NCBI GenBank assembly: GCA_001799195.1
Contig: MGSU01000251.1
Span: 1-6,687, forward strand
Reading direction: 5' to 3'
Origin: Deltaproteobacteria bacterium RIFOXYA12_FULL_61_11
Lineage (GTDB): Bacteria; Bdellovibrionota_F; JAHFAK01; YA12-FULL-61-11
DNA: 6,687 nt
Part shown: piece by piece, positions 1 through 4,979 of the stretch
Position numbering within the stretch: position 1 is the stretch's first letter
Layout: the number at the start of each line of letters is the position of its first letter
Translations under genes and position numbers: made by a program
The notes under the pieces: generated by a model
Told to the model about the DNA's origin: nothing
Database searches by the model: none
What the model saw: only the letters and a program-made list of their open reading frames with translations

Positions 1-16
1 AGACGTGCCTTTTCAT
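1..16 (-). CDS. Start of a third operon gene, truncated by the window edge (product unknown)
   Basis: An ATG on the minus strand at 16-14 opens a frame reading MKRHV before the window ends. It begins 2 nt after the thiolase-like gene's stop codon. A GGAGG Shine-Dalgarno sequence (minus strand, 28-24) sits 7 nt upstream, inside the end of the thiolase-like gene, so translational coupling is likely. Five residues cannot identify the product. Genes for SCP-x/archaeal-type thiolases are often next to a gene for a DUF35 protein (zinc ribbon plus OB fold) that forms a complex with the thiolase. That is the first guess, but it is inference from context only. Confidence 0.6.
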
Positions 17-18
17 GA

Positions 19-1194
19 TCAGTCCTCCCTGATGAAGGTCATGCAGACCACGTTGTTGCCGAACCCGCCGAAATTGCAGGTGAACCCGACCTTGGCCCCG
101 GCGACCTGGCGTTTGCCGGCCTCGCCGCGGAGCTGGTGCACGATCTCATGGGCCTGGCCGACACCGGTGGCGCCGACCGGATGCCCTTTGGCCTTGAGAC
201 CGCCCGAGGGGTTGATCGGCAGCTTGCCCTTGAGCGTGGTCAGCCCCTGTTCGAGGGCCTTGTGGCCCTCTCCCTTCTTGAAGAAGCCGCACTCCTCGCT
301 CTCGACGATCTCGAGGATGGTGAAGGCGTCGTGCAGCTCGGCCACGTTCACGTCCTTGGGCTTGACCCCGGCCATTTCCATGGACTTCGCCGCGGCGCGG
401 CGCACCGCCAGGAGGTCCGTCGGCTCCTCGCGTTCCATCACCGCCTGGGTGTCCGTGGCCTGGCCGATGCCGGCGAGGCGGACCTTGGGCCGCTTGACCT
501 TCTGGGCTACCTCCTTCGAGGCCAGGATCAGACAGGCCCCGCCGTCGGACACCGGGCAGCAGTCATAGTAGCGCAGCGGATCGGCCACGAAGGGATTGTT
601 GGTCGAGGCTTCGGGCGAATCGAGAATGCCTTCGATGGTAATCGGCTCGCGCACATGGGCGAACTCGTTGAGCAGAGCGTTGTCGTGGTTCTTCTTGGCC
701 ACCATGGCCAAGTGGCGCGAAGTCACCCCGTACTTGTCCATGTAGAGGCGGGTGAACATGCCGGCCAGCGAAGGCAGGGTCACGCCGTAGAGGAACTCGG
801 CCATGGGATGGGTCAGGGTGGCCACGAACTCGGTGGCCTCGAGGTTGTTGACCTCGCGCATGCGCTCGGCGCCGATGGCCATGGCCACGTCGTACATGCC
901 GGAAGCCACGCCGAGAAAGGCCTGTTTGACGGCCGAGGCTCCTGAGGCCGGGCCGTTCTCGATCGTTTCTGCGCCCGCGGGGCAAAGCCCGAGGTTGTCG
1001 ACCACGGCGCTGGCCAAGCCTGCCTGGTGATTGAGGCGGCAGCCGCCCATGTTGGCCACGTAGACCTGCTCGATGGTCCGCAGGCCGCAGTCCTTCATGG
1101 CCAGCATGGCCGGATAACAGGCGATCTCGGTCAGGGGGTATTCCAGCCTGGTGAAGCTGGTGATGCCGATACCTATGACGTAGACGTCGCGCAT
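19..1194 (-). CDS. Thiolase-superfamily protein (SCP-x/archaeal type) lacking the nucleophilic cysteine
   Basis: This is a complete 391-residue protein, the usual thiolase length. It starts with VYVIGIGITSF, typical of SCP-x and archaeal acetyl-CoA acetyltransferase-like thiolases. Visible family motifs are ELHDAF (286-291, His288), GGLKAKGHPVGATG (331-344, His338) and TCNFGGFGNN (372-381, Cys373). Thiolases normally carry the acyl-accepting Cys in a CASG-type motif. Here the aligned segment is IENGPASGASA (78-88), with Pro82 in place of Cys. Normal ping-pong thiolysis through an acyl-enzyme is therefore doubtful. It may instead be a retro-aldolase or other C-C lyase on a CoA thioester, as in the thiolase-fold steroid aldolase Ltp2, or a non-catalytic subunit. 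The start has GGAGG 7 nt upstream and lies 1 nt beyond the GNAT-like gene's stop. The superfamily call is secure; the reaction and substrate are unknown. Confidence 0.93.
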   Translation of the reverse strand: MRDVYVIGIGITSFTRLEYPLTEIACYPAMLAMKDCGLRTIEQVYVANMGGCRLNHQAGLASAVVDNLGLCPAGAETIENGPASGASAVKQAFLGVASGMYDVAMAIGAERMREVNNLEATEFVATLTHPMAEFLYGVTLPSLAGMFTRLYMDKYGVTSRHLAMVAKKNHDNALLNEFAHVREPITIEGILDSPEASTNNPFVADPLRYYDCCPVSDGGACLILASKEVAQKVKRPKVRLAGIGQATDTQAVMEREEPTDLLAVRRAAAKSMEMAGVKPKDVNVAELHDAFTILEIVESEECGFFKKGEGHKALEQGLTTLKGKLPINPSGGLKAKGHPVGATGVGQAHEIVHQLRGEAGKRQVAGAKVGFTCNFGGFGNNVVCMTFIRED

Positions 1195-1195
1195 G

Positions 1196-1945
1196 TCACT
1201 TCCTCCCCTCGAGAGCCCAACCTTGCGCCATCACGGCAGTGCCGGTCTGGTCGTAGAGAGCACGAGCCGCAGCCATGGGATGGATCGGCTTGCGCGGAGG
1301 ATCAGTCGGCGGCAGGATGGCCTCCATGGCCTTCTGCATAGCTTTTTCCGGGACCGGACGCCGGCCGATGACCAGGGTTCCCCTGGCGCGGTCGAAGAGG
1401 TCCTTGGTCAGGGCCCAGGAGGGGCAACCTCCCAACTCGTGGGGGACCTCGAAGCGCTTCTCGAGCTTGTATTCGATCATCCAGCGGCGGAAACCGATCG
1501 GCGATTCTGCCACGATCAACACTTCCTTCTGGCCACACACGTCGATGTGGTACTCCATCTTGGTGGCGAAGGCGTGGGCGCCGATGCGCAAACCCCGGCG
1601 CAGGCCGAGGGTGTGCAGCGACATGCCGACGTCTTTGTTCACGAAGCGGCCGTTGACCACGGCCACGAGCTCCCCGTTGACCTGGGCGACGAGCACGTAC
1701 TCGTCCTGGATGCGGTACCGGTAGTAGGCCAGCAGCTCCGAGTAGACCCGCGCAGCAACGATGTCGTAAAAATCGCGTTCGACGTGGAGCAGGGGTTCGA
1801 CGTACTTGAGCACGTCGGGGACCTCTTCCCGGCCGATCTGCCGGATCACCAGATCGTCGCCGTTGGACAGGGTCATGTACTTGGGTGGGAAGGGCGGAAA
1901 GTCATTGTCGACCGGCCGCAGGATCTTCTCGACGTCGACAGCCAT
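1196..1945 (-). CDS. GNAT-like acyltransferase-fold protein, first gene of the thiolase operon
   Basis: This 249-residue protein has a GNAT-like order of elements. These are a first strand (DDLVIRQI, 31-38), helices (43-76), a central hairpin (YVLVAQVNGELVAVVNGRF, 83-101), then LGLRRGLRIGAHAF (113-126), which resembles the acyl-CoA pyrophosphate-binding loop (R-G-x-x-I-G, 117-122). A later strand EVLIVAES (141-148) and helix follow. The last 60 residues are Pro- and Ala-rich and unassigned. The start is MAVDVE at 1945, because AGGAGG lies 5 nt upstream and the predicted transcription start (about 1997) excludes the in-frame ATG codons at 2131 and 2008. It is packed 1 nt upstream of the thiolase-like gene, so a role in the same CoA-thioester metabolism is likely. 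The catalytic residues and substrate cannot be named, and a GNAT-fold protein without acetyltransferase activity is possible. Confidence 0.85.
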   Translation of the reverse strand: MAVDVEKILRPVDNDFPPFPPKYMTLSNGDDLVIRQIGREEVPDVLKYVEPLLHVERDFYDIVAARVYSELLAYYRYRIQDEYVLVAQVNGELVAVVNGRFVNKDVGMSLHTLGLRRGLRIGAHAFATKMEYHIDVCGQKEVLIVAESPIGFRRWMIEYKLEKRFEVPHELGGCPSWALTKDLFDRARGTLVIGRRPVPEKAMQKAMEAILPPTDPPRKPIHPMAAARALYDQTGTAVMAQGWALEGRK

Positions 1946-2153: not shown

Positions 2154-2186
2154 CTCGACCGGAATATCTTGGTTCACTCCCGATCC

Positions 2187-3161
2187 ATGCAACTCGATCA
2201 CTTCAAATTCTTCAGCGCCAACCTCACCAACACCTGTATGTTGCGCTGCAAGATGTGTCATTTCTGGAAGATCGCACCCGAGGCGCAGCAAACGCTTCCT
2301 CTCGACGTCTGGCGCTCCACCGTGGCCGGCCTCGCCCCGTGCGTGAACCCCGGCTTCCCCATCATACTCGCCGGCGGAGAACCCCTGCTCGTGCCGGACT
2401 TGTCCCGCTACGTCGCGGCGGCCACCGCGCAGGGTTTTTCGGTCTCCATCGCCACCAACGGTTACCTGCTCGACGAGCGGGCGATCGAGCAACTCATCGA
2501 CGCAGGCACCAGAGCGTTCTGCCTCTCACTCGACTCGCTCGACCCATCGCTGCACGACGAACTGCGCGGCCGACCCGACTGCCATGGCCGCGTGCTCCGC
2601 GCCATCTCCTTGATAAAACGCCACAATCCCGCCACCGCGGTGAGCCTGCAAACGATCATCATGGACGCCACCTTGCCGGGCTTGCTCGACCTGACCCGTT
2701 GGGCCCTGGACGAACCCACGGTCGATTCGATCTATTTCCAGGTCGTCACCCAGACCTTCGCCACCCCTCTGGTACCCCACTGGCAGGATAGCCCGGAGCA
2801 CGCCTGGTTGTGGCCGCGCGATCTGCGCGCCGCCCTCTTCGCGCTCGATCACTTGATCGAGCTCAGTCCTCATCGCAAGCTGACCAACTCCATTCCCCAA
2901 TTCCAGACCTATAAGGCCTTTCTCTCCGATCCCCGGCATTTCGCCTTGCCGACTTCCTGTTCGATCCACCGCGCGGGTATCCACCTCGACCACAACGGGG
3001 AACTCCTGAACTGCCACCTCTTCCCCAGGCTCGGCAATGTCCGCGAGGCCTCGATCCCCGAACTGCTCACCTCCGAAACCTATCACCGAAATGTCGAGCG
3101 CATCCTCGCCTGCCGGGTGAATTGCCACTCCATGATCAATTGCTATTTCATCGACCCCTGA
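2187..3161 (+). CDS. Radical SAM protein with a reduced SPASM/twitch-like Cys-rich C-terminus
   Basis: This 324-residue cytosolic enzyme should cleave S-adenosylmethionine at a [4Fe-4S] cluster to start a radical reaction. The cluster motif C-x3-C-x2-C is Cys17, Cys21 and Cys24 (CMLRCKMC). GGEP (63-66) and SIATNG (87-92) are the next expected radical SAM motifs. The C-terminal part has Cys258, then G-x4-C (Gly271 to Cys276), then Cys309, Cys313 and Cys319. This resembles the start of a SPASM or twitch domain and could bind one auxiliary Fe-S cluster; a full SPASM domain has more Cys. Many such enzymes modify peptides or proteins, but no precursor peptide is seen beside it. The ATG at 2187 is preferred because it lies about 27 nt after the proposed transcription start. 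A TTG at 2169 would add six residues. Neither has a good Shine-Dalgarno sequence. Substrate unknown. Confidence 0.88.
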   Translation: MQLDHFKFFSANLTNTCMLRCKMCHFWKIAPEAQQTLPLDVWRSTVAGLAPCVNPGFPIILAGGEPLLVPDLSRYVAAATAQGFSVSIATNGYLLDERAIEQLIDAGTRAFCLSLDSLDPSLHDELRGRPDCHGRVLRAISLIKRHNPATAVSLQTIIMDATLPGLLDLTRWALDEPTVDSIYFQVVTQTFATPLVPHWQDSPEHAWLWPRDLRAALFALDHLIELSPHRKLTNSIPQFQTYKAFLSDPRHFALPTSCSIHRAGIHLDHNGELLNCHLFPRLGNVREASIPELLTSETYHRNVERILACRVNCHSMINCYFIDP

Positions 3162-3233
3162 TCCCTGCCGGACGGTGGCCCACTTCCTGCTCAGTACTGC
3201 CCTGTTTGGATGCAACACCATGGTTTTACTTGT

Positions 3234-4979
3234 ATGGCGGCATCATTTCGCACCCAGCTTGGCTCCACTCCGCGCCTGTTCGGCTCCGGCTTCGCCCTCG
3301 TCCTCCTCGCGGTGCTGGCCGCGGGACCTGCCTGTCTCCCCTCTTCGGAACCCGGTAACGACCAGACCCTACCCACCGGCGACGGTCTCCTGACCGAATC
3401 GCTGGTACCGGCGCCGCAGACGGCGTCGGAGCTGTTGCCCTCGTCGACACCGCCTGAGGTCGTCGCGGCCGTAGACCAAGCCCTGGTCTCGGACGGCGGC
3501 ATGTCGCTCACCCCCGAGGACCTGGTCCTGGCAGACCCCCCCCCCTTCGGCGCGGTCCTCGAAACCGTGGCCCCGGGGTTTTCCTTCGACTTCAACGAAG
3601 GCAGCGGCCCCGCGTTCCAGGACGACTTCGGCCGGGCCGAGGGCGAGGTACACGACGCGGGGTGGTTCGAGGAGCAAGACGTCTCGGGCCTCGACTTCAC
3701 CGCCATGACCTCGTCGAGCGTACTCCTGCCCACCCTCGAGCTCTCGGCCTTCACCCTCGAGGTGCGGTTGCGCCACCACAACAACTCCGACCACTGGGGC
3801 GGGATCGTCTTCCTTCCGGTCGAAGGCTGTGCCGAACCCTACCAAGTCTTCGGTCTGCAACTGCTCAGTGACGGCAAGCTCAACTTCGCCCTCGGCCTCG
3901 ACGGCCGTTCGGTCGACCTGGCCTCTTCGACCTCGCTCGTCCCCGAACGCTGGTACGAGGTCCGGGCCGTGTTCGACGGCCGCTCGATGGCCCTGTTCCT
4001 GAATGGCGAGCTCACGAGTTGGCGACCAGCGAAGGGAACCTTGGCAGAAACCACCAGCCCACTCCTGCTCGGTCGCACCGGCTGCGGCGAATACTTCAGC
4101 GGGAGTCTCGACAAGGTCGCCCTGAGGCCCGAGGCAGAAGAACTCTCGTGGCTGGAACAGACCTCGCAGCAACCCACGGTGCCGCCGAACGAGCCCACGC
4201 CGCTTCCTTCGCGCGAAGAGGCCCTTCTCCATATTCAGGCCAATGGAGCCGCGGTCACCAACCCCTTCATTGTCCCCGCCGGCGTGCTCGGTCCCTACGC
4301 CGTAGCCGTAGCCGGCCGCCGCCTGCCCGAATTGGCTCTCAAACATACCCTGATCCCGGTCAACCCGCCGGCGAGCGGTACCTTCCAACTCGTGGCCGAA
4401 TTCGTCTCCCCGCTCGACCCGAGCGACTACTACCAGGGAAAATACACCAACGCCCGCCAGGCGGGTCTGAACATCAACGATGAGAGCAATGACCTGCTCA
4501 CCGGCGAACGCTTCAGCACCACCTATCTCGGCAACCACGACCTGCCGAGGACTGCCGTGGGTTATCTGCACAACCTCAAACCCGGCGACACGGTCAGCTT
4601 GCCGGCGGCCATGCAGATCGACCGCGACGAGGGCTTCGTCAACACCGGCCTGGGCTACAAATCCGGAGCCTGCCATACCGCCAACGTGGTCTTCGGACTT
4701 TTCTCCATGCTCGAAGCCGCCTCCAACCCAACAGGGGTCCGCTTCAAGGGCGTGAACGTGGCCTACCACCAGGGTGCCTACCTGAGTTACGCCCTGATCC
4801 CCGGAGTACCTCACCCCGGTGTGACGTTCTACTACCCGTGGCTCGACCTCTCTTTCAAGCTCTCCGCCCCGCCGGAACTGCGCGACCTCGAACTGACCGT
4901 CAAGGTCCTGCCCGTCGCCCTGCAGGGCGTGGACTATGTCCTCATTGCCCAACTCTACAGCACGGCACCGCTGTACTGA
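3234..4979 (+). CDS. Exported, probable lipoprotein with LamG-like and VanW-like domains
   Basis: From the ATG at 3234 the protein has 581 residues. Two Arg (6, 14) precede a hydrophobic stretch (20-30) and Cys34 in LAAGPAC, a relaxed lipobox, so it is exported and probably lipidated. Residues about 117-300 look like a LamG/concanavalin-A-like sandwich: WGGIVFLP, WYEVRAVFDG, ALFLNGEL and LLLGRTG...SGSLDKVAL. Cys199 and Cys284 might pair. A Pro/Thr-rich linker (about 312-330) follows. The C-terminal part resembles VanW-type domains: LLTGERFSTTYLG (421-433), RTAVGY (439-444), YKSGACHTANVVF (475-487, Cys480) and YYPWLDLSFK (533-542). The upstream ATG at 3210 would add eight residues in A/T-ending codons before the signal peptide; neither start has a Shine-Dalgarno sequence. 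The role is probably carbohydrate or cell-wall binding at the envelope, which is inference. A C10 tract lies in codons 101-104. Confidence 0.85.
   Translation: MAASFRTQLGSTPRLFGSGFALVLLAVLAAGPACLPSSEPGNDQTLPTGDGLLTESLVPAPQTASELLPSSTPPEVVAAVDQALVSDGGMSLTPEDLVLADPPPFGAVLETVAPGFSFDFNEGSGPAFQDDFGRAEGEVHDAGWFEEQDVSGLDFTAMTSSSVLLPTLELSAFTLEVRLRHHNNSDHWGGIVFLPVEGCAEPYQVFGLQLLSDGKLNFALGLDGRSVDLASSTSLVPERWYEVRAVFDGRSMALFLNGELTSWRPAKGTLAETTSPLLLGRTGCGEYFSGSLDKVALRPEAEELSWLEQTSQQPTVPPNEPTPLPSREEALLHIQANGAAVTNPFIVPAGVLGPYAVAVAGRRLPELALKHTLIPVNPPASGTFQLVAEFVSPLDPSDYYQGKYTNARQAGLNINDESNDLLTGERFSTTYLGNHDLPRTAVGYLHNLKPGDTVSLPAAMQIDRDEGFVNTGLGYKSGACHTANVVFGLFSMLEAASNPTGVRFKGVNVAYHQGAYLSYALIPGVPHPGVTFYYPWLDLSFKLSAPPELRDLELTVKVLPVALQGVDYVLIAQLYSTAPLY
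3536..3545 (+). repeat. C10 homopolymer within the lipoprotein gene
   Basis: Ten consecutive C encode the end of Asp101 and Pro102-Pro104 of the exported LamG/VanW-like protein. The frame is intact at this length. Losing one C would lead to a TGA at 3706-3708, and gaining one to a TGA at 3869-3871. Both would remove most of the LamG-like domain and all of the VanW-like domain. It could be a slippage-prone site or simply a run of Pro codons in GC-rich DNA. Confidence 0.85.

Follow-up and report, generated by a model that had tools for sequence, protein, structure and literature searches.

A thiolase-fold protein with proline at the position of the nucleophilic cysteine, encoded with a GNAT-fold protein and a predicted DUF35 partner in a probable nucleobase-catabolic operon

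A cysteine-free thiolase-fold protein

Thiolase-fold enzymes are normally read as cysteine-dependent Claisen enzymes. The window analyzed here (6,687 nucleotides, the entire contig C251 of a 4.64-Mb, 342-contig, 87% complete assembly of Deltaproteobacteria bacterium RIFOXYA12_FULL_61_11) encodes what is by homology a DUF35-type thiolase-fold protein in which both catalytic cysteines are gone (Table 1). Since the acyl-accepting cysteine is Pro82 and the acid/base cysteine of the HDCF motif is Ala290, the protein, judged by these residues, cannot work as a thiolase, and its chemistry must differ from that of its relatives. It is very probably a functional, cysteine-free member of the family that belongs to an operon of nucleobase breakdown. 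The database labels "acetyl-CoA acetyltransferase" or "thiolase domain-containing protein" are almost certainly wrong for it.

An earlier note on this DNA had placed proline (CCG, minus strand) at the nucleophile position of a full-length protein, and both observations hold: the translation of the open reading frame 19-1194(-) contains ETIENGPASGASAVK and has proline as residue 82, the nucleophile motif aligns gap-free with that of cysteine-bearing relatives (ESACASG/EAACASG), and the 391 residues match the thiolase family over their full length (Pfam PF22691, Thiolase_C_1, 3e-43; PF00108, Thiolase_N, 7e-19). The AF2 model (pLDDT 78.9) matches the thiolases 7yvy and 6esq at Z 50, and curated NCBIfam models score the protein below their cut-offs only. 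The dN/dS of the gene, about 0.11-0.22 against four relatives, indicates purifying selection, and gene decay, which the note had also discounted, was rejected on these values. A sequencing error or private mutation at Pro82 was rejected as well, because proline is present in every relative that is readable there.

Table 1. Features of the window and of the Pro82 protein (residue numbers of the window protein)
Feature	Position	Strand	Observation	Basis
Pro82 thiolase-like protein	19..1194	(-)	391 aa, intact, active site without Cys	Pfam, AF2 fold, 18-row clade alignment
Pro82 codon (CCG), position of the nucleophilic Cys	949..951	(-)	Pro in 18/18 clade rows; Cys in 21/21 Cys relatives	
H288-D-A-F291, HDCF motif with catalytic Cys replaced by Ala290, His288 kept	322..333	(-)	HDAF in 18/18 clade rows; HDCF in 21/21 Cys relatives	
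His338 codon (GHPVG), active-site His	181..183	(-)	Invariant in clade and Cys relatives	
Cys213 codon, candidate relocated functional residue	556..558	(-)	Cys in 18/18 clade rows; Ser in 21/21 Cys relatives	
His129 codon, clade-specific His	808..810	(-)	His in 18/18 clade rows; Asp in 21/21 Cys relatives	
Gene of GNAT-fold protein	1196..1945	(-)	Stop 1 bp before thiolase start	Fold match
Start of downstream gene, read as DUF35 (zinc ribbon/OB fold)	1..16	(-)	Codons 1-5 (MKRHV), then contig end	

The proline clade

Close relatives of the Pro82 thiolase were collected from genome collections. NGPASG is found, with Pro82 invariant, in 20/20 sequences readable at the motif, the window's included (18 of them rows in alignment A1, the other two L057 and L058; L038 ends before the motif). 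The relatives share 49-78% identity and come from at least three named phyla, their records including Elusimicrobiota, Effluviviacota and Eiseniibacteriota. Among the other thiolases retrieved none has Pro82; nearly all have cysteine there and a few have serine or glycine. In a maximum-likelihood tree of 61 rows a single branch holds all 18 proline rows (support 100/100), so that the question raised in the earlier note, whether Pro82 is conserved in a clade, is answered in the affirmative, and its idea of a repurposed thiolase-fold enzyme agrees with a cysteine-free site that is fixed across the clade.

The clade's sister is a pair made up of L013 and a Sulfolobus structure, 4yzo; the node uniting it with the clade has support 100/99, that of the pair itself is weak (96/60). 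Both have serine instead of cysteine at position 82 and HDAF/HDMA at the HDxF motif, for which reason the two cysteines were probably lost before the proline arose. The neighborhood of L013 (L160) contains DUF35 and gave no further functional hint. The nearest cysteine-bearing relatives include a paralog from the same genome (L002, 43-44% identity). No plasmid-borne relative of the Pro82 thiolase exceeded 44% identity, and no plasmid match to the GNAT-fold protein was found.

Other thiolase-like genes came to light in the course of the comparison. The paralog of the same genome (L002/L043; L043 6221-8507, C164) has ESACASG and HDCF, and its neighbor looks by eye like an archaeal-type HMG-CoA synthase. 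The same genome also contains an adjacent pair of thiolase-like genes (G000:C200:5444-7530; L004, L005) without CASG and HDCF, one of which has EEKVAQDG and SDQY. A thiolase lineage apart from the proline clade (L019 of G021 and L026 of G043) has glycine at the cysteine position and HDAF/HDAY; by these motifs it is an independent loss of both cysteines.

The active site

The proline clade retains His288, His338, Glu286 and the loop GHPVG. The earlier note, which took all other active-site residues to be retained, is therefore right about the two histidines, which are invariant, and misses the loss of the second catalytic cysteine, evident from HDAF in every row. Cys373, which the note had counted as an active-site residue, was rejected as a second catalytic residue: the position holds C, V, L or I within the clade and Gln in the cysteine relatives. 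Fixed switches between the 21 Cys and the 18 Pro rows (numbered after the window protein) include S80N, A81G, C82P, D129H, Q180H, S213C, C290A, M375F and G380N. Residues 116-142 and 195-214, among them His129 and Cys213, are not reliably placed in the AF2 model.

In PhlC, a DUF35-partnered enzyme of the thiolase fold, the backbone amides of Cys88 and Gly385 hold the acyl oxygen (PMC6392133). Proline lacks a backbone N-H, which leaves no amide at position 82 to build the oxyanion hole, and by analogy with PhlC we infer that an acyl-enzyme at the Pro82 site would be ruled out twice over. The clade offers a clean natural case in which one residue, proline, removes the nucleophile together with the backbone N-H of the oxyanion hole.

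The GNAT/thiolase/DUF35 module

The gene adjoining the start of the thiolase gene can be read as a longer open reading frame extending to 2131, homology beginning at 1945. Its product has no Pfam match; its model (pLDDT 61.5) matches GNAT acetyltransferases, with Z 15.3 over 171 residues to 8gxj. On the other side, the window shows only the first 16 bases of the next gene; the junction GGAGGACTGATCATGAAAAGG matches TGACAATGAAGCGA of the relative L097, in which the next gene is DUF35, and DUF35 (PF12172/PF01796) follows the thiolase in all relatives whose sequence reaches that far. In each clade locus that shows the region, these three genes (GNAT, thiolase, DUF35) adjoin one another, the GNAT gene directly upstream of the thiolase. 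The GNAT gene also stands without the Pro-thiolase in AllFGH operons of three genomes (G014, G050 and G283; L165, L166 and L167), and a thiolase homolog of any kind was not found in G014 and G050.

Three further genes lie in the window. Adjoining the GNAT gene is that of a divergent radical SAM protein with a weak SPASM domain (2169-3161), which is not conserved beside the module in relatives; it is followed by genes for a protein that contains a LamG/concanavalin-like domain and probably a secretion signal (3210-4979) and for a protein with an SNF2-related helicase domain, cut by the contig end (5007-6686).

The operon in relatives

Most loci of Pro-thiolase relatives add, in varying order, AllF, AllG, AllH, a PF04199 cyclase/hydrolase and a molybdenum hydroxylase of the xanthine dehydrogenase type. 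The Pro-thiolase occurs in 13 of 386 genomes. The GNAT gene is present in all 13 and in four others (one of them weak), and AllG, found in 41 genomes altogether, is present in 11 of the 13 versus 30 of the remaining 373. Fisher tests of co-occurrence with the Pro-thiolase over the 386 genomes gave p=4e-21 for GNAT and p=3e-10 for AllG, values that are indicative because the genomes are not phylogenetically independent. The two Pro-thiolase genomes in which AllG is missing are that of the window and G329, both less than 90% complete and with contigs that end near the module. A search of the window's 87%-complete assembly, G000, turned up neither AllF nor AllG; the contig ends inside the operon, and since that assembly is incomplete the pathway of this organism is taken from its relatives. 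The operon is widespread and previously undescribed; a literature search of partial coverage found nothing joining a thiolase with FdrA/DUF1116/DUF2877 or AllFGH with barbiturate. It links the recently characterized transcarbamylase AllFGH to molybdenum hydroxylases and ring hydrolases in many uncultured lineages.

AllG of these operons shares 43-52% identity with E. coli AllG. A single acquisition of the module is not shown by the AllG tree, from which the E. coli row dropped out and on which the Pro-thiolase label needs four changes; exchange between end modules is possible. Of the 8 AllG loci that have no GNAT gene, 5 encode both a class III CoA-transferase and an amidase; of the 16 GNAT loci none has the CoA-transferase (p=0.0013), and L100 is alone in having an amidase (nitrilase family). 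CoA-transferase III and amidase are apparently an alternative end module of AllFGH operons, and this distribution is as expected if both end modules handle the same acid. AllFGH operons of the alternative kind, with neither GNAT nor thiolase and with an amidase of the AS or nitrilase family, are L173, L176, L177, L179 and L180. In one small-genome family (L168 11478-13373, L105 2532-4448, L169 1-1621) a tungsten aldehyde ferredoxin oxidoreductase accompanies AllFGH and the cyclase, replacing the molybdenum hydroxylase; L105 also carries PurU.

Clues to the pathway were drawn from AllFGH loci both with and without Pro-thiolase. NCS2 permeases near AllFGH are uracil-like in L171 and L166 and xanthine-like in L176 and L165; L178 has a cytosine permease and L176 PucR. 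Genes for a uridine phosphorylase, a cytosine deaminase-like protein and a dCTP deaminase are found in one small-genome family only. Carbamate kinase is matched in 29/30 pathway genomes, in 18 of them, that of the window included, over the cut-off, versus 2/14 over the cut-off in controls. The gene neighborhood points to nucleobase catabolism rather than to steroids or fatty acids, and the operon probably breaks down nucleobases, uracil included.

Proposed function

Ureidomalonate is oxalurate extended by one CH2 group. In E. coli, oxalurate is the substrate of AllFGH, which yields oxamate and carbamoyl phosphate (PMC11326118). In the pathway that we propose, the molybdenum hydroxylase would oxidize uracil to barbiturate, the PF04199 hydrolase would open the ring to ureidomalonate, AllFGH would convert this to carbamoyl phosphate and malonamate, and carbamate kinase would use the carbamoyl phosphate to form ATP. 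The C3 product would then go either to the GNAT/Pro-thiolase/DUF35 module or to amidase and CoA-transferase, yielding malonyl-CoA. The Pro-thiolase would decarboxylate a malonyl-type CoA thioester, as do the Cys-less KSQ ketosynthases. In the known KSQ enzymes it is glutamine, not proline, that replaces the cysteine.

Non-covalent enolate chemistry on a CoA thioester is most likely in view of the His288/His338 pair, which polarizes the thioester carbonyl in SCP2-type thiolases. Decarboxylation fits because it needs only stabilization of the enolate, which two histidines could give. Among Cys-less proteins of the fold, TbSLP, for which there is a structure with bound malonyl-CoA (5ab7), decarboxylates malonyl-CoA slowly (0.005 per s), and Sal has no such activity (PMC12329534). 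Against a malonyl thioester it counts that most Pro-thiolase loci show neither a CoA ligase nor an amidase, and against uracil that the pyrimidine-specific genes (uridine phosphorylase, cytosine deaminase) stem from a single small-genome family and that elsewhere the permeases get better scores as xanthine-type. As the best explanation of the whole we tentatively favor a module of GNAT, Cys-free thiolase and DUF35 that serves a nucleobase-catabolic operon by non-covalent chemistry. That the Pro-thiolase decarboxylates a malonyl-type CoA thioester is possible by analogy, though we would not call it likely. The complete scheme, an undescribed oxidation of uracil in which AllFGH-type enzymes gain energy by releasing carbamoyl phosphate from ureidomalonate and which ends in a new type of enzyme, a doubly Cys-free, DUF35-partnered malonyl-thioester decarboxylase or lyase with a dedicated GNAT, must be considered doubtful; if uracil is indeed the substrate, the operon would supply candidate genes for the oxidative degradation of pyrimidines by means other than the AtzD-type barbiturase.

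The module could have the same place in the operon and act on another substrate, for example on an oxalyl- or oxamoyl-type product of a purine-derived oxalurate/oxamate route. Oxalurate is the substrate on which AllFGH was characterized, the CoA-transferase of the alternative end module has CoA:oxalate CoA-transferase as its closest match, and PucR and PbuX-like permeases occur in some loci. We nevertheless regard this as rather unlikely: no ureidoglycolate dehydrogenase or allantoin gene was recognized in the loci read, molybdenum hydroxylase and ring hydrolase suit the conversion of uracil to ureidomalonate better, and uridine phosphorylase and cytosine deaminase-like genes are present. An improbable role is that of a non-catalytic scaffold, a CoA-thioester-binding platform that with DUF35 presents the substrate to the GNAT enzyme. 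In its favor, both catalytic cysteines have gone and no partner is as constant as GNAT, which occurs without the thiolase in three genomes with AllG. Against it, the clade shows no variation in the His pair, GHPVG, HDAF or NGPASG and has gained further invariant polar residues around the site, as would seldom be seen in a scaffold.

Another rival reading is a relocated nucleophile, with a covalent acyl intermediate on Cys213, perhaps assisted by His129, and acyl transfer to or thiolysis of a new substrate. Both are invariant in the clade and replaced in all cysteine relatives; counted from the conserved DG, Cys213 has what we take to be the position of the pantetheine-contacting serine of classical thiolases. 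The surrounding region (195-214), however, has a pLDDT below 50, and a nucleophile there would need a substitute for the oxyanion hole that proline disrupts, which makes such an enzyme improbable too. Less likely, and given little credence here, is a retro-aldolase or retro-Claisen lyase of the Ltp2/Sal kind, the analogy drawn in the earlier note. In its favor are the DUF35 gene that follows in relatives, the shared fold (Ltp2 6ok1 and Sal 9myr, Z 43.4 each) and the lack of a nucleophilic cysteine in Sal as well (Gly). It is weakened by the HDAF of the clade, in which His288 takes the place of the essential Tyr of YDHF/YDCY (PMC12329534) and Ala290 that of Sal's catalytic Cys; moreover, the operon contains no hydratase or dehydrogenase that would supply a beta-hydroxyacyl-CoA. 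With HDAF instead of YDHF/YDCY the mechanism of Ltp2 and Sal does not transfer.

Relation to known systems

The closest likeness in fold is to the archaeal-type, DUF35-associated acetoacetyl-CoA thiolases (6esq/6et9, 7yvy; PRK06064/AcCoTHIOL_METTL), with Z 50 and about 35-38% structural identity. The window protein shares with them the full length, the His of GHP, the His of HDxF and, as read from the start of the next gene and from relatives, probably the adjoining DUF35 gene; it differs in having proline for cysteine and alanine in HDCF and in the lack of an HMG-CoA synthase neighbor. ST0096 of Sulfolobus tokodaii (4yzo) has likewise lost both cysteines (Ser; HDMA) and has the PINPSGGL..KGHP region in common with the window protein, to which it is 39% identical across the fold, but it has serine, not proline, and is without His129 and Cys213.

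The steroid aldolases Ltp2 and Sal have in common with the window protein the Cys-less thiolase fold and with its relatives the DUF35 partner, and differ by their Tyr-based catalysis, their steroid operons and an identity of only 22-25%. TbSLP (5ab4-5ab7), which has the fold, none of the SCP2-thiolase cysteines and an affinity for malonyl-CoA, is eukaryotic, contains YDCF and is about 21% identical. In KSQ ketosynthase domains the loss of the cysteine turns an enzyme of the thiolase superfamily into a malonyl decarboxylase; these have glutamine where the clade has proline, act on ACP thioesters and have no DUF35, so that the likeness we claim is one of working manner only.

The operons of the relatives share AllF, AllG and AllH with the oxamic transcarbamylase operon of E. 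coli, carbamate kinase being encoded elsewhere in the genome. Unlike in E. coli, AllFGH is joined in them not to allantoin genes but to a molybdenum hydroxylase, a PF04199 hydrolase, GNAT, the Pro-thiolase and DUF35.
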